From NCBI RefSeq assembly GCF_016124105.1, contig NZ_JADGMQ010000023.1:1-47966 (forward strand): DNA of 47,966 nucleotides, given 5' to 3'. Below the pieces are notes generated by a model. It ran no database searches. It saw only the letters and a program-made list of their open reading frames with translations, and was not told the DNA's origin. Positions 15,769-33,035 of this stretch are shown one piece after another. Within the stretch, counting starts at the first letter, position 1. Each line of letters begins with the position of its first letter. The translations under genes were made by a program, and so were the position numbers. The DNA comes from Aquamicrobium zhengzhouense (GTDB lineage Bacteria > Pseudomonadota > Alphaproteobacteria > Rhizobiales > Rhizobiaceae).

Positions 15769-16176
15769 TCACGCCGGGATAACCGCTGTCGCCTCGATCT
15801 CGACCTTCGCCTCGTCCTCGATCAGATCTGCAACCTGCACCATGGTCATGGCGGGGAAGTGTTTGCCCATGACAGCGCGGTAGGCTTCACCCACCCCCTT
15901 GAGATTGGCGAGATAGTCGCTCTTGTCGGTGACGTACCAGGTCAGACGGACGATATGTTCGGGACGGCCTTCGGCTTCGCTCAGGATGTCGATGATGTTC
16001 TGCAAGGCTTGCCGGATTTGGCCCGGAAGTTCCTTTTCCTCGAACACTTGCTGTCCATCCCAGCCGATCTGTCCGCCGATCCAGACGGTCTTGCCTTCAG
16101 CAAGGATCCCGTTGGCATAGCCCGATGCCTTTTTCCAGTTGGCCGGATGCAGTATCTGGTGCGGGCATTCAGTCAT
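15769..16176 (-). CDS. RidA/YjgF-family protein (possible enamine deaminase)
   Basis: 135 residues. RidA-family proteins hydrolyse reactive enamines and imines to ketones plus ammonia; 2-aminomuconate deaminases belong to the same family. The fold signature is clear (WIGGQIGWDG, QNIIDIL, VRLTWYVTD, VEIEATAV). In the motif that normally carries the catalytic Arg (PARxxVEV) this protein has PAMTMVQV, so it belongs to the branch without that Arg and its chemistry is less certain. GGAGGAG precedes the ATG. It starts 46 bases after livF and is probably co-transcribed with the ABC importer, which ties it to the anthranilate-CoA island. Confidence 0.87.
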   Translation of the reverse strand: MTECPHQILHPANWKKASGYANGILAEGKTVWIGGQIGWDGQQVFEEKELPGQIRQALQNIIDILSEAEGRPEHIVRLTWYVTDKSDYLANLKGVGEAYRAVMGKHFPAMTMVQVADLIEDEAKVEIEATAVIPA

Positions 16177-16222
16177 GGTTTCTCCTCCGACAAGCAGGGC
16201 TCGCCTGCTCCTCCAAAAGGCG

Positions 16223-16906
16223 TCATACGCCGAGATAACGATCCTGAATTTCAGGGGTGAGTTGTTCTGGCTTGCCGCGCCAGACGGTTGCGCCCTTTTC
16301 GAGAACGAAGCAGCGGTCGGCGCAGGGCAAAAGCTCCGACAGCGTCTTGTCGACGATCAGGATCGACTGGCCTTCTGCCTTCAATGTTCGGATGACCGCC
16401 CAGATGTCGTTGCGGATCACAGGTGCCAGCCCTTCCGTCGCTTCATCGAGGATCAGAAGGCTCGGATTGGTCATCAGCGCGCGCCCGATCGCCAGCATTT
16501 GCTGCTCGCCGCCCGACAGTGTCTTCGCCATCTGGTCGCGGCGCTCGGCAAGGCGCGGAAACAGGCGATTGATCTCGGCGATGTTCCAGCGCCCCGGCCG
16601 CGCGGCGGCGATCAGATTTTCTGCAACGGTCAGGTTCGAAAAGCATCGACGCCCTTCCGGAACCAGGCCCAGTCCCAGCCGAGCGATCTTGTACGGGGCC
16701 ATGGTGCGGATCTCTTTGCCGCCAAAGCGCACGCTGCCGCTCTTAGCCGGTGTCAGCGCCATGATCGAGCGGATCGTCGTCGTCTTGCCCATCCCGTTGC
16801 GGCCCATCAGCGCCACAACCTCACCCTCGGCAACGTCCAGCTCCACCCCAAACAAAGCCTGGCTCGCCCCATAGAAGGTTTCGAGACCTTTTAATTCAAG
16901 CAGCAT
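16223..16906 (-). CDS. livF: Branched-chain-type ABC transporter ATP-binding protein LivF
   Basis: 227 residues, the usual length of LivF. Walker A GRNGMGKTT (about 35-43), signature LSGGEQQ and Walker B LLILDEATEGLAP are present. Where most ABC proteins have the switch His, this one has DKT (ILIVDKTLSE), in line with LivF proteins, which usually show EQN there. Together with LivG it energises import. It follows livG after a 204-base gap filled by an inverted palindromic repeat, unlike the tight packing of livHMG. Given the downstream and upstream aromatic-CoA genes, the likely cargo is an aromatic acid rather than leucine, but this is inference. Confidence 0.92.
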   Translation of the reverse strand: MLLELKGLETFYGASQALFGVELDVAEGEVVALMGRNGMGKTTTIRSIMALTPAKSGSVRFGGKEIRTMAPYKIARLGLGLVPEGRRCFSNLTVAENLIAAARPGRWNIAEINRLFPRLAERRDQMAKTLSGGEQQMLAIGRALMTNPSLLILDEATEGLAPVIRNDIWAVIRTLKAEGQSILIVDKTLSELLPCADRCFVLEKGATVWRGKPEQLTPEIQDRYLGV

Positions 16907-16943
16907 GGCGGGCCTCAGTCCGGTTCACTTCGCGCACGGCAAC

Positions 16944-17077
16944 ACCCCCACCCCGTACCCCTCCCCACAAGGGGGAGGGGTATTCTGTGAAGCTCAGCCA
17001 GCCACCACGCCTCGATAAGCGAAACGCAACCTCAAAGTTTCCCCTCCCCCTTGTGGGGAGGGGTGAGGGGTGGGGGT
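16944..17077. repeat. Palindromic repeat pair between livF and livG
   Basis: A 37-base element (16944-16980) reading C-rich, then ACAAGGGGGAGGGG, recurs inverted at 17041-17077 as CCCCTCCCCC, TTGTGGGGAGGGG and a G-rich tail. About 60 bases separate the arms. The same element type recurs at 22938-23070 and 23151-23187. In RNA it would form a very stable long hairpin between two genes of one operon. Confidence 0.85.
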
Positions 17078-17110
17078 AACCCCCGCTCAAGATTTCACGC
17101 TGCCCAGCCA

Positions 17111-17860
17111 TCATGCCGGGTCTCCCAGATACGCACGGCGCACTTCCGGGTCGTTGCGGATGTCGTCGACGCTGCCCGAGGCAATGATGCGGCCGTAAAC
17201 CAGCACCGAGATCCGGTCGGCCAGTGCAAACACGGCGTCCATGTCGTGCTCGACGAGCAGGATCGGCGCTTCCTGTCGCAAGCCATCCAAAAAGGCGGTC
17301 AGCTGGCGCGAGCCTTCCGGGCCCATACCGGCCATTGGTTCATCGAGCAGAAACGCCTTGGAATCGAGCGCCAGCGCGATGGCGATTTCGAGCTGACGGC
17401 GCTCGCCATGCGATAATTCTGCGGCGGGAACATTGGCGCGGTCTTTCAGGCCTACGCGTTCGAGCGCTGCCATGGCAGGTTCTGTCAGGCTCTTGTCGTG
17501 CATCACCGGCTTGAAGAAGCGGAAGCTGGAACCCTGCTTTGACTGCACCGCCAGCATCACATTGCGCAGGGCCGAAAATTCCGGCGCGAGCGATGAGACC
17601 TGAAACGAGCGGCCAAGCCCCTTTCGCGCACGTTCGGCAACGCCAAGATGGTTCACGCGCTCGCCGAGGAAATGGATGTCACCGGTATCCGGCTTCAGCG
17701 TGCCGGCGATCTGGTGGATCAGCGTCGACTTTCCAGCCCCGTTCGGCCCGATCAGCGCGTGGATTTCACCGGGACGAAGGTCGAGCGTCACGCCATCGGT
17801 TGCCTTCAGCGCGCCGAAGGATTTGCGCAAATCCTTGATGTCGAGAATGGCCTCAACCAT
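17111..17860 (-). CDS. livG: Branched-chain-type ABC transporter ATP-binding protein LivG
   Basis: 249 residues. Walker A GPNGAGKST, signature LSHGERRQLEI and Walker B LLDEPMAG, followed by the switch-His block VEHDMDAVF, are all present, as is the LivG-typical RSFQVSSL stretch. The start MVEAILDIKD at 17860 is preceded by GGGAGG and overlaps the end of livM by eight bases; a longer frame to 17935 lies entirely inside livM and is rejected. It pairs with LivF as the ATPase heterodimer of the importer. Confidence 0.93.
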   Translation of the reverse strand: MVEAILDIKDLRKSFGALKATDGVTLDLRPGEIHALIGPNGAGKSTLIHQIAGTLKPDTGDIHFLGERVNHLGVAERARKGLGRSFQVSSLAPEFSALRNVMLAVQSKQGSSFRFFKPVMHDKSLTEPAMAALERVGLKDRANVPAAELSHGERRQLEIAIALALDSKAFLLDEPMAGMGPEGSRQLTAFLDGLRQEAPILLVEHDMDAVFALADRISVLVYGRIIASGSVDDIRNDPEVRRAYLGDPA

Positions 17861-18842
17861 GGCGCTGCCTCCCAGCCAGAAGTCCGACAAGGCCACCGCG
17901 TGCGAAGAGAACGACGCCAAGGAGCACGAGCCCAAGGAAGAACTGCCAGCGCTCGGTGAGCCCGCCGAGCAGGAACTCGAACATCACGAACAGCATCGCA
18001 CCGGCAACGGGTCCGGCAAGACGCCCGACACCGCCAAGGATGATCAGCACGATGAATTCGCCGGACATGTGCCAGGACAGCATTGACGGGCTGACGAAGC
18101 GGTTGAGATCGGCATAGAGCGCACCGGCAAGCGCAACGATCATGCCCGAAAGAACGAAGGCCACGAGCCGAATGCGGAACGGCGCGATACCGACCGACGC
18201 CACACGCACCTCGTTCTGGCGCGCCGCTTGAAGCGCAGCACCGAAGCGCGAATTCTTGATCAGCGCAAACAGGATCAGCGCGGCAACGAGAACGCCGTAG
18301 CAGATCAGGAAGAAATTCAGCGGCACCATCGTGTTGAAGCCGGGGAACTGGTTGCGCATCAGGATCGACAGCCCGTCCTCGCCGCCATAAGCGGGCCACG
18401 AGATCGCGAAGTAGAAGGTCATCTGCGCGAAGGCGAGCGTGATCATGATGAAATAGACGCCGGATGTGCGCAGCGAGATCGTGCCGATCGCCGCCGCCAA
18501 CAGGCCACCAACCAGCATCGCAAACAGCCAGATCGTCGGCATCTGGTTCGATCCCGGCAGCGTGAACAGGCCAAAATTCAGCGGCTGCATCGACATGGCG
18601 TGACTTGCCAGAATACCGGCGACATAGCCGCCAATGCCAAAGAACGCGGCATGGCCAAATGAGACCAGCCCGCCAAGGCCAAGCGCAATGTTGAGGCCAA
18701 CGGCGGCAAGGCCAAGGATCGCCATGCGGGTGGCAAGCGTCACATAGAACGGATTGCCGAACTTTATCGCCGCATAAGGCAGCGCAAGCAGAAGGGCGAG
18801 GAGGAGAAGGGAAACCCAGTTTTCGCGCGAAAGGTTCATCAT
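17853..18842 (-). CDS. livM: Branched-chain-type ABC transporter permease LivM
   Basis: 329 residues with eight to ten membrane segments. The blocks NIALGLGGLVSFGHAAFFGI (about 50-69) and SGMIVALAGALYA are characteristic of LivM. It forms the channel with LivH. The ATG starts one base after the livH stop, and its ribosome binding site (AAAGGG) lies inside the end of livH, so the two are translated together. The end overlaps livG by eight bases. Confidence 0.93.
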   Translation of the reverse strand: MMNLSRENWVSLLLLALLLALPYAAIKFGNPFYVTLATRMAILGLAAVGLNIALGLGGLVSFGHAAFFGIGGYVAGILASHAMSMQPLNFGLFTLPGSNQMPTIWLFAMLVGGLLAAAIGTISLRTSGVYFIMITLAFAQMTFYFAISWPAYGGEDGLSILMRNQFPGFNTMVPLNFFLICYGVLVAALILFALIKNSRFGAALQAARQNEVRVASVGIAPFRIRLVAFVLSGMIVALAGALYADLNRFVSPSMLSWHMSGEFIVLIILGGVGRLAGPVAGAMLFVMFEFLLGGLTERWQFFLGLVLLGVVLFARGGLVGLLAGRQRHG

Positions 18843-18843
18843 C

Positions 18844-19767
18844 TTACCCTTTCGCAGCCGGGAAGAGGCCCTGCGGGCGAACCGCCAGCACCACGGCCAT
18901 CACGATATAGATCAGCATGGAAGCCAGCGCGCCGCCGACAATGCCGGCCTGCGAGGCATTCATGAACAGCCCAAAGATTTGCGGCAACAAGAAACGGCCC
19001 ATCGTGTCGACGACGCCGACGATGACAGCGCCAACCAGCGCGCCCCTGATAGAGCCAATACCGCCAATGACGATCACGACGAAGGCGAGTATCAGCGCCG
19101 GTTCACCCATGCCAACCTGCACCGATTGCAGCGCACCAACCATCGCCCCGGCAAGACCTGCGAGCGCAGCACCCAGCGCAAAAACGATGGTGTAGAGCGT
19201 GCGGATATCGACGCCGAGCGCCCCGATCATCTCGCGGTCGGATTCACCGGCGCGAATGCGCATGCCAAGCCGCGTGCGGGTGATCAGAAGGAAAAGCCCA
19301 ACCGCGACCGCAACGCCCACACCGATGATGGCAAGGCGATAGAGCTGGTAGCGCGAGCCGCCCGGCAGCGGGACGGTGCCCTGCAAGAGCGGTGGAATGT
19401 CGAGATAGAGCGGGAACGAGCCAAACAGCCAGCGCGTGCCTTCAGAAAAGACGAGGATCAGCGCAAAGGTCGCCAGCACCTGATCAAGGTGATCGCGCTC
19501 GTAGAGCCGCCTGATTACCAGAATTTCGATGATTGCGCCGGCGGCTGCGGCGGCTGCAAGGCTTGCAATCAAGCCGAGCCAGAACGAGCCGGTATAGGCT
19601 GCGACGGTCGCGCACGCGAATGCCCCGACCATATAGAGCGAGCCGTGGGCCAGATTGATCAGGCCCATGACACCAAAAATCAGCGTCAACCCTGCGGCCA
19701 TGAGAAACAGCATAACCCCGAGCTGAAGCCCGTTCAGAAGCTGTTCAATGAAGAGCGCGGTTTGCAA
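18844..19767 (-). CDS. livH: Branched-chain-type ABC transporter permease LivH
   Basis: 307 residues with about eight membrane segments. GLTLIFGVMGLINLAHGSLYM near the N-terminus and VIVIGGIGSIRGALVGA near the C-terminus are LivH signatures. No ATG fits: the frame from 19881 begins in repeat-like sequence, while the family begins just before LFIEQLLNGLQLG. The best start is TTG at 19767 (reads LQTALFIEQ), although its ribosome binding site is weak. The 202-base gap up to livK holds a palindromic repeat. Confidence 0.9.
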   Translation of the reverse strand: MQTALFIEQLLNGLQLGVMLFLMAAGLTLIFGVMGLINLAHGSLYMVGAFACATVAAYTGSFWLGLIASLAAAAAAGAIIEILVIRRLYERDHLDQVLATFALILVFSEGTRWLFGSFPLYLDIPPLLQGTVPLPGGSRYQLYRLAIIGVGVAVAVGLFLLITRTRLGMRIRAGESDREMIGALGVDIRTLYTIVFALGAALAGLAGAMVGALQSVQVGMGEPALILAFVVIVIGGIGSIRGALVGAVIVGVVDTMGRFLLPQIFGLFMNASQAGIVGGALASMLIYIVMAVVLAVRPQGLFPAAKG

Positions 19768-19813
19768 GGTGAAGCTCGAGCGTTCGCCGTGAAAAGATTG
19801 CCGTAGCCGATGG

Positions 19814-19956
19814 TCCCTCGCCCCGTTTACGGGAGAGGATGGCCCGAAGGGTCGGGTGAGGGGCAGCGTCAACGCATCCACTTCTTGGCGAAGTGGGCAT
19901 CAGCCCCTCATCCCCCTGCCGGGACCTTCTCCCCGCCAGCGGGGAGAAGAAGCGCT
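19814..19956. repeat. Palindromic repeats between livH and livK
   Basis: Two GC-rich elements in opposite orientation: one at about 19814-19867 (CCCCGTTTACGGGAGAGGAT, then GGTGAGGGGC) and one at about 19903-19949 (GCCCCTCATCC, CCTGCCGGGACC, TTCTCCCCGCCAGCGGGGAGAA). A related pair lies at 27244-27372. Only about 13 bases separate the end of this repeat from the livK stop codon, so it may act as the 3' barrier of a stable livK message. Confidence 0.75.
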
Positions 19957-19969
19957 CGTAAGCTTTCGC

Positions 19970-21115
19970 CTACTTCAGCGCGCACTGCTCTGCATAGGCA
20001 TCGCCGTGGTCGGTGAAGGCGGTGGCGATGATCTTGTTGGTCAGCACGTCACCATCCTTGATCACTTCGCGGACATAGATGTCCTGGATCGGGTGGTTGT
20101 TGGTGTTGAACGAGAACTTGCCACGAACCGACTCGAACTCGGCAGCCTTCAGCGCGGTGCGGAACGCGTCGGCGTCCTTGACGCTTGCCTTGCCAGCAGC
20201 CGAAACGATCAGGCTACCGGTGTCGTATGCCTGTGCGGCATAGATCGACGGCAGACGGCCATACTCAGCCTGGAAGGTTTCGACGAACTTCTTCGACGCT
20301 TCATTGTCGACGTCCTGCGACCACGAAGCCGAGTTCTTCACGCCAAGCGCTGCATCGCCGATCGCCGGCAGAACGTCCTGTGAGAACGAGAAGCCAGGTC
20401 CGATGACCGGAATTTCAACGCCCGACTGCGCGTACTGCTTCATGAACGAGATGCCCATGCCGCCCGGCAGGAAGATGAACAGCGAGTCCGCACCCGATGC
20501 GCGGATCTGCGCGATCTCGGCTGCGTAGTCGGTCTGGCCGACCTGCGTGTAGATCTCGCCAGCAAGTTCCTGCTTGTAGTAGCGCTTGAAGCCGGTCAAC
20601 GAGTCGGTGCCCGCCGGGTAGTTCGGCGCCATGATGACGGTCTTCTTGTACGTCTCGTTGGCGTACTGGCCCATCGCTTCATGGAAATTGTCGTTCTGGT
20701 AGGCGACGTTGAAATAGTTGGCATGGCACTGCGAGCCGGCAAGCGGCGAGGGGCCTGCATTGACCGAAAGGTAGAACTTGTCCTGCGCAACCGCGCTCGG
20801 CACGACGGCCATGGCAAGGTTCGACCAGATGATGCCGGTGAGAATGTCGACCTGATCCGACTGGATCATCTTGTCGGCGATCTGGACGGCGAGTTCCGGC
20901 TTCTGGCCATCGTCTTCGACCACAACTTCGATGTCCTTGGCTGCATCGCCGGCGTTCTTCAGCGCCAGCAGGAAGCCGTCGCGTGCATCAACGCCAAGAC
21001 CTGCGCCGCCGCCCGAAAGCGTGGTGATGACGCCAACCTTGATCGGATCAGCGGCGGCCACCCCGGCGACGCTGATGGCAAGCGCGGCAACGCTTGCGGC
21101 TAGAAATTTCTTCAT
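19970..21115 (-). CDS. ABC transporter substrate-binding protein (LivK-like, Peripla_BP_6)
   Basis: 381 residues with an export signal (MKKFLAASVAALAISVAGVAA, cleavage near residue 22). The mature start DPIKVGVITTLSGGGAGLG is typical of the leucine/isoleucine/valine and aromatic-acid binding family. Two mature Cys (SQCHANYF and the C-terminal EQCALK) may form a disulfide, as in many LivK-like proteins. GAGTTGAGGA precedes the ATG. The protein would capture the imported compound in the periplasm; related proteins in aromatic-degradation clusters bind benzoate-type acids. It is the first gene of the importer and has its own promoter region with repeated GTATGC motifs. Confidence 0.93.
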   Translation of the reverse strand: MKKFLAASVAALAISVAGVAAADPIKVGVITTLSGGGAGLGVDARDGFLLALKNAGDAAKDIEVVVEDDGQKPELAVQIADKMIQSDQVDILTGIIWSNLAMAVVPSAVAQDKFYLSVNAGPSPLAGSQCHANYFNVAYQNDNFHEAMGQYANETYKKTVIMAPNYPAGTDSLTGFKRYYKQELAGEIYTQVGQTDYAAEIAQIRASGADSLFIFLPGGMGISFMKQYAQSGVEIPVIGPGFSFSQDVLPAIGDAALGVKNSASWSQDVDNEASKKFVETFQAEYGRLPSIYAAQAYDTGSLIVSAAGKASVKDADAFRTALKAAEFESVRGKFSFNTNNHPIQDIYVREVIKDGDVLTNKIIATAFTDHGDAYAEQCALK

Positions 21116-21170
21116 TCCTCAACTCCCGTTGTTCTGGCACCCTCTGGGTCCCACACGATGATCAAAAATT

Positions 21171-21219
21171 GGCTGCATTGCCAGTATGCGGCGGTATTTT
21201 TGTTGGGCTGTATGCAGCC
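21171..21219. promoter_or_regulatory. Repeated half-sites upstream of the binding-protein gene
   Basis: GGCTGCAT (21171-21178) and ATGCAGCC (21212-21219) form an inverted repeat; inside it GTATGC occurs twice (21184-21189 and 21210-21215), and GGCTG-N4-CAGCC forms a second small palindrome (21206-21219). The cluster lies 56 to 104 bases upstream of the livK-like start, just beyond the ligase stop, where an activator or repressor would bind. Which regulator uses it is unknown. Confidence 0.35.
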
Positions 21220-21238
21220 ATGTTCCCCTTGTCCAGCC

Positions 21239-22864
21239 TCAACTTGACGCTGCGTCCCGAAGGCGGAAGCGCTGGATCTTTCCGGTTTGTGTTTTTGGCA
21301 GCGTCTCGACGAAGCGCACCGAGCGCGGATATTTGTACGGTGCGATCATCGCCTTCACATGCGCTTGCAGGAGGCGAATGGTTTCCTCATCGCCATCAGC
21401 CCCGTTCGCAAGCACGATGTAAGCCTCGACAATCTGTCCGCGCTCCTCATCTGGAGCACCGATGACGGCGCATTCTGCGACGAGCTCATGCGACAGCAGC
21501 GCAGCTTCGACCTCAGGTCCGGCAATGTTGTAGCCAGCCGACAGGATCATGTCGTCGGATCGCGCGGCAAAGTGAAAATGCCCGTCCGTATCGTGGGTGA
21601 AGGAATCGCCCGTCAGGTTCCAGCCGTCGCGCACATAGTCCTTCTGGCGATCGTCGTCGAGATAACGGCAGCCCGTCGGCCCCCGCACGGCCAGCCGTCC
21701 AACCTCGCCCCGCGGCAATTCGTTCATGTCCTCATCAACGATTTTTGCTTCGTAGCCGCTCACCGCCTTGCCGGTAGAACCCGGCGCGCGATCATCCAGC
21801 CGATTGGTGATGAAGATATGGAGCATCTCCGTCGCCCCGATCCCATCAAGGATCGGCTTGCCAGTCTTGCGCGTCCATTCCTCATAGACTGGCGCGGGCA
21901 GCGTCTCGCCCGCCGACACCGCGATGCGCAGCGACGACAAATCCGCACCTTCATCCATCGCCTTCATCATCGCGCGATAGGCGGTGGGCGCGGTAAACGA
22001 GATCGTCGCGCGATATTTTTCGATGATCTCGATCATGTTCGGCGGCGTCGCGCTTTCGAGCAAAGTCGCCGCCGCCCCAAAGCGCAGCGGGAACACGGCC
22101 AGACCACCAAGGCCGAAGGTAAAAGCCAGCGGCGGTGAGCCGACAAACACGTCATCCGGCGTGACGTTCAGCACTTCCTTGGCATAGCCATCGGCAATGA
22201 TCAGCACATCGCGATGAAAGTGCATCGTCGCTTTGGGAATGCCGGTCGTACCCGAGGTGAAGCCCAGCAGGCAGACATCATCGCGTCCGGTCTTCACCGC
22301 CTCAAACGTCACCGGCTTGTCGAGCGCGACACGATCGAGCTCGGCATCGTGATTGGCCGTGCCGTCAAAGCCGATCACTTGCTTGAGGAAGCGGCTGTCC
22401 TTGGCGCATGCGATCAACTCGTCCTTGATACGCGTGTCGCACAGCGCCAGCGAGATTTCCGCCTTGTCGACGATCTTGGTCAATTCACCCGCCCGCAACA
22501 TCGGCATCGTGTTGACGACAACCGCCCCCGCCTTCGTCGCGGCGAGCCAACACGCGACCATGGCCGGATTGTTGGGCGAGCGGATCAGGACGCGGTTTCC
22601 CGGCGTGACGCCGTAATTTTCAACCAGCGCCCGCGCCAGCCGATTGGTCCAGTCGGCGAGTTCCTTGTACGTCCGCCGCCGCCCATTGCCGATCAACGCC
22701 GTGCGATCGCCAAAACCCTTTTCCACCAACCGATCGGTCAGCTCGACGCCGCAATTGATGTAATCCGGATACTCAAACCCCACCTGTGGCAAGTCCGGCC
22801 ACTGATCGAACGGCGGAAGATTGTCCCGGCTAAACGTATCCACATGCGCAGAAGGCCCCAGCAT
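21239..22864 (-). CDS. 2-aminobenzoate-CoA ligase-like aryl-CoA synthetase (ANL superfamily)
   Basis: 541 residues. Activates an aromatic acid with ATP and CoA through an acyl-adenylate. The phosphate loop GFTSGTTGIPKATMHFHRD, the GIGATEML block, the hinge Asp region HFAARSDDMILSAGYN and the C-terminal catalytic Lys in PKTQTGKIQRF are present. The N-terminal DNLPPFDQWP start resembles 2-aminobenzoate-CoA and benzoate-CoA ligases. The start at 22864 has GGAGGG eight bases before it; the longer frame to 23098 is made of palindromic repeat. Neighbouring 2-aminobenzoyl-CoA monooxygenase/reductase-like and beta-oxidation genes make anthranilate the most likely substrate; salicylate is the main alternative. 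Confidence 0.88.
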   Translation of the reverse strand: MLGPSAHVDTFSRDNLPPFDQWPDLPQVGFEYPDYINCGVELTDRLVEKGFGDRTALIGNGRRRTYKELADWTNRLARALVENYGVTPGNRVLIRSPNNPAMVACWLAATKAGAVVVNTMPMLRAGELTKIVDKAEISLALCDTRIKDELIACAKDSRFLKQVIGFDGTANHDAELDRVALDKPVTFEAVKTGRDDVCLLGFTSGTTGIPKATMHFHRDVLIIADGYAKEVLNVTPDDVFVGSPPLAFTFGLGGLAVFPLRFGAAATLLESATPPNMIEIIEKYRATISFTAPTAYRAMMKAMDEGADLSSLRIAVSAGETLPAPVYEEWTRKTGKPILDGIGATEMLHIFITNRLDDRAPGSTGKAVSGYEAKIVDEDMNELPRGEVGRLAVRGPTGCRYLDDDRQKDYVRDGWNLTGDSFTHDTDGHFHFAARSDDMILSAGYNIAGPEVEAALLSHELVAECAVIGAPDEERGQIVEAYIVLANGADGDEETIRLLQAHVKAMIAPYKYPRSVRFVETLPKTQTGKIQRFRLRDAASS

Positions 22865-22937
22865 CACGCGAGCCCTCCGACTGAGACGTTCGCGTAATGC
22901 AACCCCGGCTCTCCGCCGGAGACGCCCGCGCCAGGCA

Positions 22938-23187
22938 ACCCCCACCCCGTGCCCCTCCCCACAAGGGGGACGGGGATTCTGAGATGCCGCGACGCTTCGT
23001 GGCGTCTTCCTAGAGCAGTTACTCTTCCAAATTCCCCTCCCGCCTGTGGGGAGGGGTAAGAGGTGGGGGGACTGCCACGCACCGTGCCCTCCGCCCATCT
23101 CCGCCCCAACGCCCCCCGCCTATCAATGCTTAGCAGGGCCTCTCCATTTTCCCTTCCCTCTTGTGGGGAGGGGTAAGGGGTGGGGGT
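22938..23187. repeat. Palindromic repeats between ligase and acyl-CoA dehydrogenase genes
   Basis: The 405-base gap 22865-23269 holds no gene. It contains an inverted pair of the same element as at 16.9 kb (22938-22975, and 23034-23070 with TGTGGGGAGGGGTAAG), and a third single copy at 23151-23187. Between the arms lies a short GACGCTTCGTGGCGTC palindrome (about 22991-23006). The region would form strong RNA structures within a presumed operon. Confidence 0.82.
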
Positions 23188-23269
23188 GCCTTTGCGCCCA
23201 ACCGTCCCCGCTAACCGCCAACCTTCTTCAAAAATGCAGCCGCATTGGCTGCCGAACTGGCTCATGTCG

Positions 23270-24415
23270 TCAGGCTCCCATTGTCTGCCGGGCGATCACC
23301 ACCTTCTGGACGTCTGATGCGCCCTCATAGATGCGGAGTGCCCGGATTTCGCGATAAAGGCTCTCGACGATGTGCCCCTTTCTCACACCGTCGCCGCCAT
23401 GCAATTGAACCGCCTTGTCGATGACGCTTTGGGCGCGATCGGTGGCGTGAAGTTTGGCCATTGCGGCCTCGCGTGTCACACGCGGCGCGCCGGAATCCTT
23501 GGTCCAGGCGGCGCGATAGACGAGTAGCGCCGAAGCATCGACGTCGAGTGCCATCTCGGCGACGTTGCCCTGCACCATCTGCAGATCAAACAGAGGCGCA
23601 CCGAAGAGCTGTCGATTGGCGACGCGCGACAGCGTTTCATCGAGCGCCCGCCGCGCAAAGCCAAGCGCAGCCGCGCCTACCGTCGAGCGGAAGACATCCA
23701 GCACCGACATCGCAATCTTGAACCCGTCACCCGGCTTGCCGATCATGGCGGAGGCGGGCAGGCGCAGATCATCGAACACGAGGCGCGCCAAAGGATGCGG
23801 CGCAATCGTCTCCAGTCGCTCGGCAATGATCATCCCCGGCGTATCCGCCGGTACCAGAAACGCTGACAGCCCCTTCGCCCCAGGCGCTTCGCCGGTGCGG
23901 GCAAAGACGCAATAAAGGTCGGCAATGCCGCCGTTTGAAATCCAGGTCTTTTCGCCCGACAGCACATAATCGCCGCCATCACGCGTTGCCGTCATTTCCA
24001 TATTGGCAAGGTCCGAACCCGAACGCGGCTCGGTCAGCACAAAGGCCGAAATCGCCTTGCCAGTGCGGGTCTTCTCCAGCCACTGCTTCTGCTCGGGCGA
24101 GCCAAACAGACTGATCGCGCCAGTGCCCAGCCCCTGCATCGCAAAGGCAAAATCCGCCAGCCCATCATGCCGCGCCAAAGTCTCGCGCGACAGGCACAGA
24201 GTGCGCACGTCGAGCGGCTTCGGATCAGCCGGATCAATCGCCGTCGGCAGCAACAAACCCGCCTCGCCAAGGGAAGCCACGAGTTTTCGGCAGGCAGCGT
24301 CAACGTCGCCATGATCTACCGGCAGATGAGCCTCGCACCAAGCCTCAAGCTTTTGCGCATGCGCGCGATGGTGATCGTCGAAGAACGGCCAGGAGAGAAA
24401 CGAACGATCAGCCAT
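23270..24415 (-). CDS. Acyl-CoA dehydrogenase
   Basis: 381 residues, usual for the family. FAD-dependent introduction of a double bond next to a CoA thioester. The flavin-binding block [17 protein letters not shown] and TWISNGG, the C-terminal [12 protein letters not shown] helix and IYEGASDVQ with the catalytic-Glu position are visible. The start MADRSFLSW at 24415 is preceded by AGGAGAA; the longer frame to 24481 enters repeat DNA. In 2-aminobenzoyl-CoA clusters such an enzyme is thought to act on the dearomatised ring-CoA or its ring-opened product. It lies between ligase and hydratase genes, separated from both by repeats. Confidence 0.9.
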
Positions 24416-24446
24416 GGTGAATTCTCCTGCGCGAGGTCGCGGAAGC

Positions 24447-25090: not shown

Positions 25091-25191
25091 CTTGGCTCGC
25101 ACCTGCAATTCCTACGGAGCGGGCGGCCTCGTCCCTGCCGGAGGGGGCTGCCTGATGCATCTCTCTTCCGATCCCCATCCGCGCGCGCATC

Positions 25192-26004
25192 TCAGTTCCC
25201 CTCGAAGACCGGACGTTCCTTGGCCACAAACGCGTGGTAGGCGCGTTCGAAGTCGCGGGTCTGCATGCAGATCGCCTGCGCCTGCGCTTCAGCCTCGATC
25301 GCCTGCTCCAGCCCCATCGACCATTCCTGGTTGAGTTGGGTCTTGGTGATGCTGTGCGCGAAGGTCGGGCCCGCCGCAATCTGCCGGGCGAGCTTCATCG
25401 CCTCCGCTTCAAGCTCACCTGCCTCGACAAGCCGATTATAAAACCCCCAGCGCTCGCCCTCGGCGGCGCTCATGGTGCGACCGGTGTAGAGCAGCTCCGC
25501 CGCGCGGCCCTGTCCGATGATACGCGGCAGCATGGCGCAAGCGCCCATGTCGCAACCGGCAAGGCCGACGCGCGTGAACAAAAATCCGGTCTTGGCTTCG
25601 GGTGTCGCAAGGCGCAGATCGGACGCCATCGCAATTATGGCCCCAGCCCCGACCGCGACGCCATCAACCGCCGAAATGATCGGTTTGCCGCAGCCGATCA
25701 TCGCCTTGACGAAGTCACCGGTCATGCGCGTGAAGGCCAAGAGCTCCTTCATGTCCATCTTGACCAGCGGGCCGATAATGTCGTGCACATCGCCGCCGGA
25801 GCAGAAATTGCCGCCATTGGGCAGGAAGACGACGACATCGACATCTTCCGCATAGACCAGTGCGCGAAAGGTGTCGCGCAGCTCGGCATAGCTGTCGAAG
25901 GTCAGCGGGTTCTTGCGCTCGGGCCGGTCCAGCATCACACTTGCCACGCGGTCCTCGACCTTCCAGAGGAAGTTCTTCGGCGCAAGTTCAGCCATCTTCG
26001 TCAA
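25192..26004 (-). CDS. Enoyl-CoA hydratase/isomerase (crotonase) family protein
   Basis: 270 residues. The CoA oxyanion-hole blocks [10 protein letters not shown] (about 66-75) and [22 protein letters not shown] (about 113-134) are present. Where many hydratases have the first catalytic Glu (PEI/PEV block) this protein reads [16 protein letters not shown], so it may hydrate, isomerise or hydrolyse a ring-type CoA ester rather than a simple enoyl-CoA. The start is either TTG at 26004, which overlaps the MarR stop (TTGA) and has GGGAG eight bases upstream, or ATG at 25995 with a poorer spacing; I prefer TTG. It is the third of three overlapping genes SDR-MarR-hydratase. Confidence 0.88.
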
Positions 26005-26462
26005 TGTTCACTCTCCCAATTGCTGCGAAACGCCTTCAGCATCGAGGACAGCACGCGGGCATCCTCTTCGCTGATGTCGTGCAGAAGTTCTTCAACCCAG
26101 CTGCGATGGGCTTCGGCCATCAAGGCAAAGCGCTCTTCTCCCGCCCTGGTCAGGCGCGCGATCGAGGTGCGTCGATCTCCCTCGCGGTTGGATCTTGAGA
26201 CGAGACCCTCTGCAACCAGCCGGTCAACGATCCCGGTAACATTGCCGTTCGAAACCAGCAGAAACCGCGACAGGTCGCTCATCAGCATGCCGTCGCGTTC
26301 GCGGTAGAGGGCCGACATCACGTCAAAGCGTGGTAGCGTCGAGTGGAACTCGCGCTTCAGCCGCTCGCGAAGCTCACCCTCAACGATCCGCGCAACGCGC
26401 AGCAGCCGGATCCACAGGCGCAAACGTTCGCGATGGGCCGGATCGGCGATGGCGGCGTCCAT
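26001..26462 (-). CDS. MarR-family transcriptional regulator
   Basis: 153 residues. Winged helix-turn-helix of the MarR type: the recognition region [25 protein letters not shown] and the wing [13 protein letters not shown] with its DRR triplet. MarR proteins in CoA-dependent aromatic pathways are usually repressors released by an aryl-CoA ester. The ATG shares one base with the stop of the SDR gene and its own stop overlaps the hydratase TTG, so it is inside the operon it probably controls. The palindrome TTCAAGGTTGAA upstream of the monooxygenase gene (29749-29760) is a candidate site. The longer frame to 26918 is inside the SDR gene and rejected. Confidence 0.92.
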
Positions 26463-27217
26463 CACATCTCGCCTCCTGTGATTGCAATGGTCTGGCCGGT
26501 GACGGAACGCGCTCCCTCCGAACACAGCCACATCACGGCGTCCGCAACCTCCTGCGGCTCGATGATCCGGCCTTGAGGATTGCCCCTGGCGATGGCGTCG
26601 CGCGCGGCCTGTTCGTCGCGGCCGGTCTTGCCAACGATGTTGGCGACAGTGCGCTCCAGCATCGGCGTCTCGACATAGCCGGGGCAGACTGCGTTCACGG
26701 TAATCGGGGTCTGCGCCAGTTCCGCCGCCATCGAGCGCATCAGCCCGACGACACCATGCTTGGAGGCGGCATAGGCTGAAATATACGGCGCGCCCTTCAG
26801 CCCTGCGATGGAGGCGATGAACACGATCCGGCCCCCTCCTGCCGTTTTCATCGTGTCCATCGCGGGACGGACGCTCAAGAAGGCGCCCGTCAGATTCACG
26901 GCCAGCGTCTGGCTCCACATGTCGAGCGAGGTCTTGCCCACCGGCGCGCTCAGCGCGATGCCGGCATTGGCAATGACAACGTCAAAATTCCCCCGCGCAG
27001 CCTGCGCGCTCTCATAAAGCGCTTCGACGGAAGCTTCGTCGGTGACGTCTGCGGTCATGGCATGAATGCGCGGATTGCCAGCGGCCACCTTCTCCAGCGG
27101 CTCGATGTTGCGACCGCAAATGGTCACCTCCAGACCCGCGGCCGCCAGGCTTCCCGCAATCGCCTGCCCAATCCCGGTCCCCCCACCGGTCACCAATGCA
27201 TGTTTGAATTGGGTCAT
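26462..27217 (-). CDS. Short-chain dehydrogenase/reductase (probable 3-hydroxyacyl-CoA dehydrogenase)
   Basis: 251 residues. Classical SDR: cofactor loop TGGGTGIG (about 10-17), NAG (about 86-88), catalytic Ser in IASIAG, Tyr and Lys in YAASK, and the PGYVETPM block. CGRN after the second beta strand suggests NAD(H) or NADP(H) without clear preference. In the pathway it would oxidise a 3-hydroxyacyl-CoA to a 3-oxoacyl-CoA. GGAGA precedes the ATG. It lies 172 bases downstream of the monooxygenase/reductase gene, with a palindromic repeat in between, and overlaps the MarR gene by one base. Confidence 0.9.
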   Translation of the reverse strand: MTQFKHALVTGGGTGIGQAIAGSLAAAGLEVTICGRNIEPLEKVAAGNPRIHAMTADVTDEASVEALYESAQAARGNFDVVIANAGIALSAPVGKTSLDMWSQTLAVNLTGAFLSVRPAMDTMKTAGGGRIVFIASIAGLKGAPYISAYAASKHGVVGLMRSMAAELAQTPITVNAVCPGYVETPMLERTVANIVGKTGRDEQAARDAIARGNPQGRIIEPQEVADAVMWLCSEGARSVTGQTIAITGGEM

Positions 27218-27243
27218 ACAGAAATCTCCAAGGCTGGGCGCTG

Positions 27244-27372
27244 CTGCCCCTCACCTGCCTGCCGGCATCCTCTCCCCGTAAGCGGGGCGAGGAAGGCTGC
27301 CATCGACGATGCCACCTGTCTCTTCTCTCCGTTTACGGGGAGAAGTCCCCGGCAGGGAGATGAGGGGCGGCA
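27244..27372. repeat. Palindromic repeat pair between SDR and monooxygenase/reductase genes
   Basis: Two arms in inverted orientation: about 27244-27295 (GCCCCTCACCTGCCTGCCGG, CCTCTCCCCGTAAGCGGGGC) and about 27317-27372 (CTCTCCGTTTACGGGGAGAA, CCCCGGCAGGGAGATGAGGG). Same family as 19814-19956. It fills most of the 172-base gap. Confidence 0.8.
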
Positions 27373-27389
27373 CCAACGCTTCAGACCCA

Positions 27390-29678
27390 TCACACCTTCC
27401 CCGTCATCTGTTCCGGCCCACGCTCTGCCAAGCGATAAAGCTGGTCGCGGCCAGGGTGGTAGGGGTTCGGCCAGACGACACGCTTGTCACCAAGCTTCGC
27501 CGCCGCGTGCAGCGTCCAATAGGGATCTGCGAGATGCGGGCGGGCGAGGCAGACGAGGTCGGCGCGCCCTGCCATCAGGATCGAATTGACGTGGTCGGGC
27601 TCATAGATGTTGCCGACGGCCATCGTCGCCATGCCGGTCTCGTTGCGAATGCGATCCGAAAACGGCGTCTGGAACATGCGGCCATAGACCGGCCTTGCCC
27701 GCGTCGAAGTCTGGCCCGCCGAGACGTCGCAAATGTCGACGCCAGCGGCCTGCAGCATGCGCGCAATCTCGACGGCCTCGGCAGGCGTTACACCCTCATC
27801 GCCGACCCAGTCATTGGCCGAAATACGCACCGAGACCGGTTTGTTTTGCGGCCAGACGGCGCGAACGGCATGAAACACTTCAAGCGGAAAACGCATGCGG
27901 TTTTCGAGCGAGCCGCCATACTCGTCCCTGCGCAAATTCGTCAGCGGCGAAATGAACGACGATAGCAGATAGCCGTGCGCCATGTGCAGTTCGATCATGT
28001 CGAAGCCGCAGCGTTCCGCCATGACAGCTGACGCCACAAACTGGTCGCGCACCATGTCCATGTCAGCGCGGGTCATCGCCTTCGGCGTCTGGTTGCCGTC
28101 TTGCCACGGCGTTTCTGACGCCGACAGAAGCGGCCAGTTGCCTTCCTTCAGCGGCGCGTCGGCATCTTCCCAGCCAATCTGCGTCGAGCCCTTGGCTCCC
28201 GCATGGCCGATCTGCGCCGACATCTTTGCCGGTGTCTCTGCATGGACGAAATCGACAATGCGCTTCCACGCCGCTTCATGTTCCGGCTTGTAAAAACCGG
28301 GGCAGCCGGGCGTGATCCGCCCTTCCGGCGACACGCAGGTCATCTCGATCGTGACGAGCCCTGCACCACCCTTGGCGCGCTCGGCATAATGGACAAAGTG
28401 CCAGTCGGTCGGCGTGCCATCGACGGCACGATATTGCGCCATCGGCGAGACGACGACGCGGTTGGGCAGTTCGAGGCCGCGCAGCTTGAACGGCGCAAAC
28501 ATTGGCGCGCGCTGAGCCTTAGCTCCCGCCTGTTCCTGATACCACTTTTCCGCGCCGCCGAGCCAGTTGCCATCGCGCAAACGCAGGTTTTCGTGGCTGA
28601 TGCGCTGCGAGCGGGTCAGAAGCGAATAGTTGAACTGCACCGGGTCGAGATCGAGATAACGCTCAACCTCTTCGAACCATTCCATCGAATTGCGTGCCGC
28701 CGATTGCAGGCGCAGAACTTCCAGCCGCCGCGCTTCTTCGTACTTGGCGAAGGCCGCCTCAAGCGTCGGTTCCGAATGGAGATAATCGGCAAGCGCGATG
28801 GCGGATTCGAGCGCGAGCTTCGTGCCCGAGCCAATCGAGAAATGCGCGGTTGCTGCCGCATCGCCCATCAGCGCAAGGTTCTTGTAGGACCAGCGCTCGC
28901 ACAGGACGCGTGGGAAATTGATCCAGGCCGAGCCGCGCACGTGGTTGGCGTTGGAGATCAACGCATGGCCGCTCAGATGGTCCTTGAAGATCGCCTCGCA
29001 GGTCGCGATGGATTCTTCCTTCGACATGTCGCCGAAGCCGAACTTGTCCCAGGTCTCTTGCGTGCACTCGACGATGAACGTCGCTGTCTCCGGGTCGAAC
29101 TGGTAGGCATGGGCCCAGACCCAGCCATGCTCGGTCTTCTCAAAGATGAAGGTGAAGGCGTCGTCGAATTTTTGGCGCGTGCCAAGCCAGACGAACTTGC
29201 ACTTTCGGGTGTCGACGTCGGGCAGGAAATGCTCGGCAAAGGCCGTGCGCGTTTTCGAGTTCAACCCGTCCGCCGCGATGACGAGATCGTACTCGGCCAT
29301 CAGCTTTTCGTGGTCGTCGATTTCGGTCTGGAAACGCAGGTCAACGCCAAGCTCCCTGGCGCGTTCTTGCAGCAGGATCAGGAGGCGCATGCGGCCGATG
29401 CCGCAAAAGCCATGGCCGGTCGAGACGGTTCGCACGCCCCTGTGCACCACCGCGATGTCATCCCAATAGGCAAAGTGTTCGCGAATGGACGCGGCGCTCT
29501 TGGCGTCGTTGACCGCAAGGTTATCCAGCGTCTCGTCAGATAGAACGACGCCCCATCCGAAGGTGTCATCCGGGCGGTTGCGCTCGAAGACTACGACTTC
29601 GTGCGCCCCATCTCGCAGCTTCATCGAAATGGCGAAATACAGGCCAGCAGGCCCGCCGCCAAGCACGGCAACCTTCAT
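27390..29678 (-). CDS. Fused FAD monooxygenase / old-yellow-enzyme reductase (2-aminobenzoyl-CoA monooxygenase/reductase-like)
   Basis: 762 residues in two parts. Residues 1 to about 380 are a flavin hydroxylase ([10 protein letters not shown] at 8-17, the GD motif in [13 protein letters not shown]). From about 395 follows an FMN reductase of the old yellow enzyme type ([43 protein letters not shown]). This fusion is known from 2-aminobenzoyl-CoA monooxygenase/reductase, studied in Azoarcus evansii, which hydroxylates the ring and then reduces it, and from salicylyl-CoA 5-hydroxylase-type enzymes. Ligase, RidA and ammonia-yielding chemistry nearby favour 2-aminobenzoyl-CoA. GGAGG sits directly against the ATG, an unusually short spacing. 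It heads the minus-strand operon. Confidence 0.92.
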
Positions 29679-29831: not shown

Positions 29832-30662
29832 ATGATCTTTCACGGCATTGACGATTGGGATGACGCCTACGCAAACGGTCCCAACATTCCTCGCGGGGAT
29901 GAGTGGCCGCAGCGCTGGTCTGACCTGGCAGAGCCGTTTCGCACGCGAATGGATGAGGAAGGCCGCGCGATGCTGGGCCAGCGCTATGGCACCCGCTCAC
30001 GCAATCTGTTCGATCTCTTCATGCCGCAAGTCGATGCAAAAGGGCTGGTGGTCTTCATCCATGGTGGCTTCTGGCTCAGGCTCGACCGCGATTTCCTCTC
30101 GCACCTTGCCGCAGGGCCAATGGCACACGGTTACGCCGTGGCCATGCCGTCCTACACGCTGTGCCCGGACATCAAGGTCTCAGGCATCGTCAAGGAGATC
30201 GGCTCGGCAGTTGAAGTTGCGGCGTCGCGGATCAACGGGCCGATCTACCTCACCGGACATTCGGCCGGCGGGCATCTTGCGACCCGCATGGTGTGTGCGA
30301 ACTCTGCGCTCAAGGAAGAAACACGCAGCCGCATCGTCACCACGGTGTCGATTTCCGGGGTTCATGATCTGCGCCCGCTGCTGCGGACCAAGCTGAACAA
30401 CGGACTGCGTCTTGATCCCGAAGAAGCGCATCGGGAAAGCCCGGTTTTGCTGGCGCCGATTGAGGGCGCGAAAATATGCTGCTGGGTCGGCGCTGGCGAA
30501 CGCGCCGAGTTCATCCGGCAAAATGCACTTCTTGCCAATGTCTGGACCGGCCTCGGTGCAAAGACAATGACGGTAGAAGAGCCCGACCGGCATCATTTCA
30601 ATGTCGTCGACGGCCTTGCCGATCCCGAGCATCCTTTGACGCGCACGCTGCTGATGGGGTGA
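29832..30662 (+). CDS. Alpha/beta hydrolase, kynurenine formamidase-like
   Basis: 276 residues. HGGFW (about 76-80) is the oxyanion motif of the animal-type arylformamidase and hormone-sensitive-lipase group; the nucleophile Ser lies in TGHSAGG and the catalytic His in DRHHFNV. Arylformamidase converts N-formylkynurenine to kynurenine, one step before anthranilate. That would link this island to tryptophan breakdown, although no tryptophan dioxygenase or kynureninase is in the window. It could instead hydrolyse an N-formyl or N-acyl anthranilate or an ester. AAGGGGAG precedes the ATG. Divergent from the monooxygenase gene. Confidence 0.82.
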   Translation: MIFHGIDDWDDAYANGPNIPRGDEWPQRWSDLAEPFRTRMDEEGRAMLGQRYGTRSRNLFDLFMPQVDAKGLVVFIHGGFWLRLDRDFLSHLAAGPMAHGYAVAMPSYTLCPDIKVSGIVKEIGSAVEVAASRINGPIYLTGHSAGGHLATRMVCANSALKEETRSRIVTTVSISGVHDLRPLLRTKLNNGLRLDPEEAHRESPVLLAPIEGAKICCWVGAGERAEFIRQNALLANVWTGLGAKTMTVEEPDRHHFNVVDGLADPEHPLTRTLLMG

Positions 30663-30717
30663 CGGGGCCGGACAAGTCTGGCAGAAGGGTTCAGCAGTTT
30701 TTACCGGAGCAGGTTTG

Positions 30718-30954: not shown

Positions 30955-30962
30955 TCGATCGC

Positions 30963-31781
30963 TCAGGCTGGCGAACGCCAGCCATTGCGCAGATCATCCG
31001 CCGTTGCGAGGCGTCGCCCGGAGGCGGCGCACGCCGTTGCCGTCGCGGCAACAATCGCCGCATTCGATGGCGCATCCGTGCCGTCCGGCAGCCACAGATT
31101 GTTTTCAAAGCCAACGCGCGCATTGCCGCCCGCATGTGAAGCGCGTTCCATGAACTGCGTCTCCTGCGGGCCGAAGGCGCACATCATCCACTGATGGCGT
31201 GAAATGTTCGCGGCAATGTAAGTGTCGAGCTCTTCGGGCGTCGCGCCCTGTTCGGTGTAGCGCCCGGCAACAGCCAGAACCGCCAGCGGTCCATCCGGCA
31301 ACAAGCCGCGCTTGGCCAGCGCATCAAGGCGCTCAAGCTCGCCTGCCTCGTAGATGATGATCTGATAGAGCGTGCCAGCCTTCTCCATGCGCACAAACAG
31401 AGCCGCAGCCTCTCGCTCATCTTCGCCTTCGGGAAGAATTTCGCGCAGGGCGATCGACACCGATTCTGGCATCAAGACATCGACCAACGCGATCTGCTCT
31501 TGCGGTGTATAGCGGCCGACCGCCTCGGTGGTGATCTGGATCACCAGCTTGTCGCCAACCGCCGTTTTCACAGCCGCCACCGCCTCACGATAGAGATCTG
31601 CGTCCAGCGTATGCGCACCGTTTTCGTCGCGCACGTGGAGGTGGATCATCGCCGCGCCCGCGTCCAGCGCTTCCGCCGCATCGCGCGCAATCTCATCTGC
31701 CGTCATTGGCAGGCGAGGGTGGTCAGCCTTCGTACACCGCGCTCCGTTGGGGGCAACTGCAATGGCAAATGGGTTCGTCAT
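30963..31781 (-). CDS. Beta-keto acid cleavage enzyme (BKACE, DUF849)
   Basis: 272 residues. The family condenses a beta-keto acid with acetyl-CoA and splits it into acetoacetate and a new CoA thioester, using a zinc ion. The zinc-site HLHVRD (about 47-52) and the family blocks GAAMIHLHVRDENG, QITTEAVGRYTP and GFENNLWLPDG are present. In this setting it may take the place of a thiolase at the end of the ring-degradation route, or clean up a beta-keto acid released from CoA. It is 33 bases downstream of the MFS gene and likely in the same transcript. Substrate is inferred from context only. Confidence 0.88.
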   Translation of the reverse strand: MTNPFAIAVAPNGARCTKADHPRLPMTADEIARDAAEALDAGAAMIHLHVRDENGAHTLDADLYREAVAAVKTAVGDKLVIQITTEAVGRYTPQEQIALVDVLMPESVSIALREILPEGEDEREAAALFVRMEKAGTLYQIIIYEAGELERLDALAKRGLLPDGPLAVLAVAGRYTEQGATPEELDTYIAANISRHQWMMCAFGPQETQFMERASHAGGNARVGFENNLWLPDGTDAPSNAAIVAATATACAASGRRLATADDLRNGWRSPA

Positions 31782-31814
31782 CGAAATTTCCGGTATTCTT
31801 CTTCTGCAAAGAGA

Positions 31815-33035
31815 TCAGGCTGTCAGCGCGCGCGGCATGCGCGTACGCCACAGGATCAGGATCATGATCAGGATGTTGAGAACGTTCCAGGCGATGCCAT
31901 TGAGGAACGCCTTGGCGTAGGAGCCGGTAAGATCGTAGATCCAGCCCGACATCCAGCCGCCGACGGCCATGCCGACGATTGTCGCGAGAATGACGAGGCC
32001 AACGCGCTGGCCTGCCTCATGTGCCGGCAGATATTCGCGCACGATGATCGCATAAGCCGGAACAATGCCGCCCTGCGACAGGCCGAAGATCAGCGACACG
32101 ATGTAAAGCGAAGCCAGCCCGTCGAACGGGATATAGGCCAGCAGCGCAAGGCACTGCAGCACCGATCCGATCAGCAAGGTCTTCACGCCGCCAATATAGT
32201 CGGCGAGGACGCCGGAAGCGAGGCGGCTGACCACGCCGCCAATCAGCATCAGCGACAGCATCTCGGTTCCCCGCGCAACGCCAAAGCCGAGATCAACGCA
32301 ATAGGCGACAATGTGCACTTGCGGCATCGCCATGGCCATGCAGCAACCAACGCCTGCAACCGCAAGCAAAAGCTGCAGCGCTCTTGGCGACAGATCGATG
32401 CTTTTTGACGGAACAGCTGCGGATGTACCGGCAGGAGCACTGACATAAGGCGCTCTGCGACGCAGCATCAAGGCCAGCGGAACCATGCCGACGAGGCAGG
32501 CGATCGAGATTACCGCATAGGTGTAGCGCCAGCCTTCGCCGCTCATCATCATCTGCATGAGGATCGGCCAGATTGCACCGCCAAAATAGTTTCCGCTTGC
32601 CGCTGCCGCGACTGCAACGCCACGCCTTTTGTTGAACCAATGCGACAAATCGGCGATCAGAGGCCCGAAGGTTGCTGCGGCCCCGAAACCCACGAGGCCC
32701 TGCATCAGCCCGAACAGCCAGATCGACGTCACCATCGAGGCGACGACGTAGCCAACGAAAAGCGCTGCGGCAGCCACCAGAAGCGGTACCACGATGCCGG
32801 AGCGATCCACCATCCGGCCCAGCACCACATTGCCAAGCGCAAAGCCGATCATTGTCATGGTGTAGGGCAGGGAGGCCGAGCCGCGATCGACGCCGAATTC
32901 AGCCTGCACTTCCGGAAGCACCACCACGACCGACCACATGCCGACGCTGCCCACGGTGCCGATCAGCACCGACAAAATGAGCCGCGTCCAGGCGTATCGG
33001 CCGTCAATTTCACTGGGGGAGGTGATGGTGTGCAT
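31815..33035 (-). CDS. MFS transporter (OFA/monocarboxylate-type)
   Basis: 406 residues with about 12 membrane segments in two halves. The loop motif GRMVDRSG after segment 2 and its copy ADYIGGVKTLLIGS after segment 8 are those of the major facilitator superfamily; the overall pattern resembles oxalate/formate and monocarboxylate carriers. It may import aromatic or keto acids for the neighbouring BKACE, or export an intermediate. AAGGG precedes the ATG. A weak promoter (TTGCGT, 16 bases, TAACAT) lies on the minus strand at 33095-33068 in the 252-base divergent gap to the RlpA-like gene. Confidence 0.87.
   Translation of the reverse strand: MHTITSPSEIDGRYAWTRLILSVLIGTVGSVGMWSVVVVLPEVQAEFGVDRGSASLPYTMTMIGFALGNVVLGRMVDRSGIVVPLLVAAAALFVGYVVASMVTSIWLFGLMQGLVGFGAAATFGPLIADLSHWFNKRRGVAVAAAASGNYFGGAIWPILMQMMMSGEGWRYTYAVISIACLVGMVPLALMLRRRAPYVSAPAGTSAAVPSKSIDLSPRALQLLLAVAGVGCCMAMAMPQVHIVAYCVDLGFGVARGTEMLSLMLIGGVVSRLASGVLADYIGGVKTLLIGSVLQCLALLAYIPFDGLASLYIVSLIFGLSQGGIVPAYAIIVREYLPAHEAGQRVGLVILATIVGMAVGGWMSGWIYDLTGSYAKAFLNGIAWNVLNILIMILILWRTRMPRALTA

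Follow-up and report, generated by a model that had tools for sequence, protein, structure and literature searches.

An arginine-less Rid-family protein as a candidate deaminase in an anthranilate operon of Aquamicrobium zhengzhouense

Which protein removes the amino group when anthranilate is broken down as its CoA thioester? The question is raised by a 47,966-bp stretch of DNA from Aquamicrobium zhengzhouense (assembly GCF_016124105.1, bases 1-47966 of contig NZ_JADGMQ010000023.1; hereafter the window), taken from a genome of 4.07 Mb in 29 contigs with a completeness of 99.98%. Positions 15769-29678 hold an operon whose encoded families point to anthranilate as the substrate taken up and degraded through CoA intermediates in this strain. 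The 2-aminobenzoyl-CoA pathway itself is already known, with the amino-removing step unassigned; its fused ring-attacking enzyme is 2-aminobenzoyl-CoA monooxygenase/reductase (ACMR). In an operon of a known kind, the new and testable part is a Rid-family protein that has lost the catalytic arginine of RidA and that, judging from its sequence and company, is the best candidate for this step. We consider it rather likely that this arginine-less Rid deaminates the ACMR product.

Conservation of the Rid-ACMR pairing and of the operon

When 151 genomes of the same family were searched for both proteins, 88 had both, one had ACMR only (G056), none had Rid only and 62 had neither; Rid thus occurs in 88 of the 89 ACMR-positive genomes (ACMR at E <= 1e-200, 80 above the family cut-off) and in 0 of the 62 ACMR-negative ones, figures whose weight for our interpretation is lessened by the fact that genomes within a family are related and not independent, so that a formal p-value for them should not be read literally. 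The two genes lie within 15 kb on the same contig in 72 of the 88, and a genome-wide search (E <= 1e-15) found Rid in 115 of the 199 genomes of the family. A wider sample of 398 genomes from the phylum had ACMR (E <= 1e-180) in 71 and Rid in 69, every one within the 71, so that Rid accompanies ACMR in 69 of 71 genomes and is found in 0 of the 327 ACMR-negative ones. These counts uphold the view of the first-pass annotation that Rid is a conserved operon member. It had also proposed to look for joint conservation of Rid and BKACE in homologous clusters, and of this only the Rid half stood: BKACE occurs in 0 of 160 fetched ACMR loci. As yardsticks, two other genes follow ACMR more loosely: tryptophan 2,3-dioxygenase is present in 43 of 52 clade A genomes (defined below; 44 of 52 with the weak match of G066) against 5 of 63 genomes without ACMR, and a kynurenine formamidase-like hydrolase in 48 of 52 against 19 of 63, counts made from hand-copied lists in which the hydrolase was scored for 123 of 130 genomes, its nine weakest rows, from seven genomes, being left aside. 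Genome G089, in which ACMR is incomplete and lies at the end of a contig, counts as ACMR-negative in the yardstick (63) and as positive in the Rid profile (62).

The ring-attacking enzyme of the window is a fusion of an FAD monooxygenase with an Old Yellow Enzyme domain, scores above the cut-off of NF006101 and shares its operon with an aryl-CoA ligase and beta-oxidation genes. Its surroundings were compared in two sets that overlap in organism, with identity limits of our own choosing: 80 named loci (the best 80 among 590 relatives, reaching at most 10 kb to either side of ACMR) and 80 family loci, taken from genomes of the family and none longer than 20 kb. The named loci contain the short-chain dehydrogenase/reductase (SDR) in 74 cases, the MarR regulator in 75, the crotonase in 75, the acyl-CoA dehydrogenase (ACAD) in 68, the ligase in 50, Rid in 47, the substrate-binding protein in 29 (27 of the 80 family loci), the formamidase-like hydrolase in 23, the MFS carrier in 3 (5 of the 80 family loci, one of them partial) and BKACE in none, the low counts of distal genes being partly due to the ends of the stretches. 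By ACMR identity the family loci fall into clades A (51 loci, 68-90%), B (18, 54-57%) and C (11, 46-49%). Clade A retains SDR in 50, MarR in 50, crotonase in 48, ACAD in 47, ligase in 45 and Rid in 37 of its 51 loci, many of those without a given gene ending at contig or stretch borders. The earlier reading, in which the operon degrades anthranilate in a CoA-dependent manner and includes an importer, is accordingly borne out by gene families, synteny and conservation in relatives. Paracoccus denitrificans PD1222, for one, carries the complete operon.

Rid itself lies within the fetched stretch in all 18 clade B loci, in 37 of the 51 of clade A and in none of the 11 of clade C. Among the 14 loci of clade A that lack it, two (L095 and L099) extend 14.4 kb downstream, and their genomes (G108 and G104) have Rid elsewhere. 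The clade C loci were considered as a Rid-free control, which was withdrawn, as Rid is present in all 11 clade C genomes; eight of these have clade C only, and in six of the eight Rid and ACMR share a contig at a distance of 12-40 kb, and two clade C loci hold the same SDR-MarR-crotonase-ligase-Rid cassette.

The pairing extends to plasmids and beyond the phylum. At E <= 1e-100 ACMR is matched by 95 plasmid records, and at E <= 1e-10 Rid is matched by 94; among the matches listed Rid adjoins ACMR in Arthrobacter Rue61a, Rhodococcus, Tsukamurella, Streptantibioticus and the haloarchaeon Halomicrococcus, the last with the order ACMR-Rid-ACAD-MaoC-SDR-crotonase. The Rue61a plasmid cluster (NC_009453, pAL1/pARUE113) brings together ACMR (49% identity), ligase (53%) and a methionine-type Rid (38%) as in the window, but differs in that, there and in Rhodococcus and Tsukamurella, genes annotated as fumarylacetoacetate-hydrolase-family, cupin and thioesterase proteins replace the SDR-ACAD-crotonase set; the 18.4 kb fetched from the Rue61a plasmid gave no SDR, ACAD or crotonase match, and two of the three clusters have weak SDR matches (27-30%). 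Since Rid is kept in actinobacterial clusters without the SDR-ACAD-crotonase set, it follows ACMR and not the later enzymes, and these clusters (L241, L243 and L246) suggest a second lower route.

Methionine for arginine and the proposed chemistry

The window Rid has the fold and family of the imine/enamine deaminases RidA and RutC: its AlphaFold2 model (pLDDT 96.2) matches the folds of YabJ, RutC and RidA, and it is recognized by PF01042. It nevertheless carries Met110 at the position of the RidA arginine (Arg105), which is present in the aligned UK114/RidA chains. Its NCBIfam matches are limited to TIGR00004, PRK11401 and RutC, with scores below the TIGR00004 and RutC cut-offs; at 59.1 bits against the TIGR00004 cut-off of 106.25, and with methionine for the catalytic arginine, the label RidA given in the first-pass annotation does not apply. 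The replacement recurs among the homologues: methionine is found in 101 of 101 homologues from the fetched loci (83 of 83 of clade A type and 18 of 18 of clade B, the named and family sets behind this total overlapping), in 30 of another 32 matches, which come from distant families, from clade C and from paralogues, and in seven of eight plasmid proteins. The remainder are two serine-type, Bradyrhizobium-order-level paralogues away from ACMR (G352 and G410) and the haloarchaeal protein, which has valine; none of these 101, 32 and eight aligned homologues has arginine there.

In RidA the arginine binds the substrate carboxylate (PMC4433059), and RutC requires its own (PMC8113886). The subfamilies Rid4-Rid7 also do without it and have no known function (PMC4433059, repeated in PMC8113886); Rid4 and Rid7 have tryptophan and Rid5 and Rid6 a variable residue at this place (PMC4433059), whereas the operon Rid almost always has methionine. 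By profile the nearest solved sequence is 5v4f, in whose alignment arginine is likewise missing. Deaminases of the Rid superfamily do take part in aromatic breakdown, namely 2-aminomuconate deaminase (AmnE) and the Rids predicted in aromatic regulons (PMC6742747, PMC6449761), but AmnE-type enzymes act on a free acid and not a CoA thioester, and their similarity to the window Rid is weak (6izh, E 2.4e-6). We found no published link between Rid and an aminobenzoyl- or anthraniloyl-CoA pathway in the part of the literature covered.

Based on these features we propose the following route. A Liv-type system would import anthranilate, and the ligase would convert it to 2-aminobenzoyl-CoA. By analogy with Azoarcus evansii, in which the ligase and ACMR reactions are established and whose aerobic pathway likewise has a ligase, the fused monooxygenase/reductase and genes of beta-oxidation type (PMC4539516, PMC3534580), ACMR would then hydroxylate and reduce the ring to 2-amino-5-oxocyclohex-1-ene-1-carbonyl-CoA. 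The arginine-less Rid would hydrolyse the enamine of this product, releasing ammonia and 2,5-dioxocyclohexane-1-carbonyl-CoA; we posit that the arginine is dispensable here because the carboxylate it would bind is masked as a CoA thioester. In Arthrobacter Rue61a anthranilate-CoA ligase activity has been shown, and only cells grown on anthranilate contain a C7H8O4 ester of CoA, interpreted there as possible cyclohexanedione-carboxyl-CoA (PMC3534580). The same formula belongs to 2,5-dioxocyclohexane-1-carboxylic acid and so fits the predicted Rid product. The crotonase may next open the beta-diketone hydrolytically to 4-oxopimeloyl-CoA, while ACAD, SDR and enzymes encoded elsewhere would complete the chain under regulation by MarR. 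The nearest solved chain to the crotonase is 3g64. Two points bear on its candidacy as ring opener: in the haloarchaeal cluster a MaoC-type gene stands apart from the crotonase gene, and the window protein presumably lacks the glutamate of ordinary hydratases.

Several observations weigh against a catalytic Rid. Exchange of the arginine for alanine inactivates both RidA and RutC, and the available sections of PMC4433059 and PMC8113886 contain no arginine-less Rid with demonstrated deaminase activity. The ACMR product deaminates hydrolytically without an enzyme in acid and is unstable below pH 5 (PMC3534580), so that an enzyme may be unneeded, and a deaminated species in cells does not prove Rid to be its source. 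ACMR occurs without Rid in G056 (fragmented), G487 (a stop in the ACMR match) and G538 (ACMR apparently intact), and in the latter two a tblastn search of the 20 kb surrounding ACMR gave no Rid match. Conversely, three Sulfitobacter plasmid stretches (L249, L250 and L251) have importer, thioesterase and Rid with no ACMR in the stretches opened, the remainder of the pathway being possibly on another replicon, and an eroded cluster on a Mycetohabitans endofungorum plasmid (L248) has near full-length Rid and crotonase, short SDR, ACAD and ligase matches and no ACMR match. Strain Rue61a cured of its plasmid still grows on anthranilate, via presumed chromosomal paralogues. Finally, no thiolase was seen among the scanned open reading frames (ORFs) of the cluster, which leaves the earlier notion of a self-contained island unsupported.

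The missing arginine, the subfamilies without ascribed activity and the instability of the ACMR product would suit a protective or accessory Rid, one that traps a side product of ACMR or acts in a chaperone-like or ligand-sensing manner while the enamine decays unaided. We regard this as unlikely, though it is the most serious competitor of the deaminase, because a nearly perfect match to the distribution of ACMR, seen in different families and with differing lower routes, fits a catalytic partner better than general protection. Much less credible is a different substrate, with the ring enzyme a salicylyl-CoA 5-hydroxylase and the locus degrading salicylate: NF006101, whose cut-off ACMR passes, bears that enzyme's name and plasmid records are annotated with it, but the kynurenine genes linked to the operon in relatives make anthranilate, the anthranilate-CoA ligase activity of Rue61a stands beside an ACMR 49% identical to that of the window (PMC3534580), and the presence of a Rid fits a substrate with an amino group and not one with a hydroxy group. 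The name of NF006101 probably misleads annotation, the context pointing to 2-aminobenzoyl-CoA.

Kynurenine genes, BKACE and other neighbours

Beyond the operon a divergent alpha/beta hydrolase, BKACE and an MFS carrier reach to position 33035. The hydrolase matches a putative esterase (PDB 2pbl, 1.7e-67) and kynurenine formamidase (4e11, E 3.7e-15), and the first-pass annotation called it formamidase-like and saw it as suggesting a complete route from kynurenine or anthranilate. The likeness stands, as does the linkage to tryptophan 2,3-dioxygenase and kynureninase in relatives, but neither of these two enzymes has a match in the window genome, so that a route from kynurenine or tryptophan lacks support there and the full kynurenine route was rejected for it. 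In the clade A genomes, 43 of the 52 also have kynureninase; all three genes are present in 40, and besides the window genome four have only the hydrolase of the three. The dioxygenase is found no more than 15 kb from ACMR in 28 of these genomes, kynureninase in 21 and the hydrolase in 23. Where the window has a 50-bp gap between ligase and substrate-binding protein, the same-genus genome G098 has, by blastn, 887 bp with the dioxygenase. As both same-genus genomes searched (G098 and G172) have it at this site, its loss from the lineage of the window is more probable than gain on two occasions. Relaxed selection on the orphan hydrolase was considered: that of the window is 62% identical to that of G098 and 68% to that of G172, these two sharing 73%, and several other window genes also have lower values. 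The hydrolase may be a leftover, or a still useful formamidase, of a larger tryptophan-kynurenine-anthranilate cluster.

BKACE fared worse as the proposed lower-pathway enzyme and was rejected, given its absence from the ACMR loci and its place in a separate module in relatives. Besides the window, orthologues (63-75%) occur in four of the 199 family genomes, G172, G070, G148 and G055. G172 has, one after the other, genes for MFS, an SIS-domain regulator, a class III aminotransferase, BKACE, a TAXI-type binding protein and a TRAP permease with DUF3394, the orthologue (75% identical) lying 15.7 kb upstream of ACMR; G070 has MFS, SIS-domain protein, BKACE (21 kb upstream) and TRAP permease, and G148 a TRAP permease nearby. 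In the same-genus G098 the MFS gene adjoins the hydrolase and BKACE is absent. From this gene order, BKACE and perhaps the MFS carrier appear to be the edge of another module brought close to the operon. The idea of a complete route in which BKACE cleaves a late beta-keto acid, though BKACE and MFS adjoin the operon and MFS does so in a few relatives too, is the least probable of all, in view of the SIS/aminotransferase/TAXI-TRAP module of G172, the absence of BKACE from the fetched ACMR loci and the missing dioxygenase and kynureninase.

All genes named in the first-pass annotation are present where it placed them (Table 1). Several listed ORF starts are probably too early: homology of the ligase begins near 22864, and the translations point to starts near 24415 for ACAD and 26465 for MarR. 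Palindromic, GC-rich interspersed repeats at 24446-25191 (between ACAD and crotonase) and 22900-23200 (upstream of the ligase) create long false ORFs. One ORF, 24408-25379, had no family match and overlaps repeat-rich DNA, and for these reasons we read it as probable intergenic DNA and not a gene. A UreE-like urease accessory gene (15120-15674) directly adjoins Rid and has no match in the fetched ACMR loci. At 1944-5118 the window further encodes a TRAP DctM permease and a TAXI-type binding protein, 28-46% similar, among the matches listed, to those of the BKACE module.

Table 1. Features of the operon and its flank in the window
Feature	Position	Strand	Basis or remark
Rid-family protein, catalytic Arg absent (Met110)	15769..16176	-	PF01042 E 4.2e-21; TIGR00004 59.1 bits, under cut-off
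LivF-type ABC ATPase	16223..16906	-	profile match
LivG-type ABC ATPase, start probably internal	17111..17935	-	profile match
LivM-type permease	17853..18842	-	profile match
LivH-type permease	18844..19881	-	profile match
ABC substrate-binding protein, probable aromatic acid importer	19970..21115	-	profile match
50-bp gap (tryptophan 2,3-dioxygenase site in G098)	21205..21254		blastn
Aryl-CoA ligase, probable 2-aminobenzoate-CoA ligase	21239..22864	-	TIGR02262 358.9 bits; ORF listed to 23098
Acyl-CoA dehydrogenase (ACAD)	23270..24415	-	PF00441, PF02770; ORF listed to 24481
Crotonase-family protein, candidate ring-opening hydrolase	25192..26004	-	NF006107 480.4 bits, cut-off 330
MarR regulator	26001..26465	-	PF01047 E 6e-11; ORF listed to 26918
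Short-chain dehydrogenase/reductase (SDR)	26462..27217	-	profile match
ACMR, FAD monooxygenase fused to Old Yellow Enzyme domain	27390..29678	-	NF006101 1283.6 bits, cut-off 1078; PF01494, PF00724
Alpha/beta hydrolase, kynurenine formamidase-like, orphan here	29832..30662	+	NF058665 352 bits, cut-off 320
BKACE, neighbour outside conserved operon	30963..31781	-	PF05853 E 2e-67, 227.9 bits, cut-off 24.8
MFS carrier, partly conserved neighbour	31815..33035	-	PF07690

Significance for the Rid family

A broader proposition is that the methionine-type, arginine-less Rid lineage as a whole is a dedicated deaminase of CoA-thioester enamines and an obligate partner of ACMR, from proteobacteria to actinobacteria and haloarchaea; to this we would give even chances. 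The arginine-less Rid subfamilies have been called mysterious and have no substrate, and the co-occurrence described here offers both a precise substrate and a chemical reason for the loss of the arginine. If correct, this would be the first function for arginine-less Rid proteins and would supply the missing ammonia-releasing step of the pathway, thereby assigning nitrogen release in a widespread anthranilate/tryptophan route of soil and marine bacteria.

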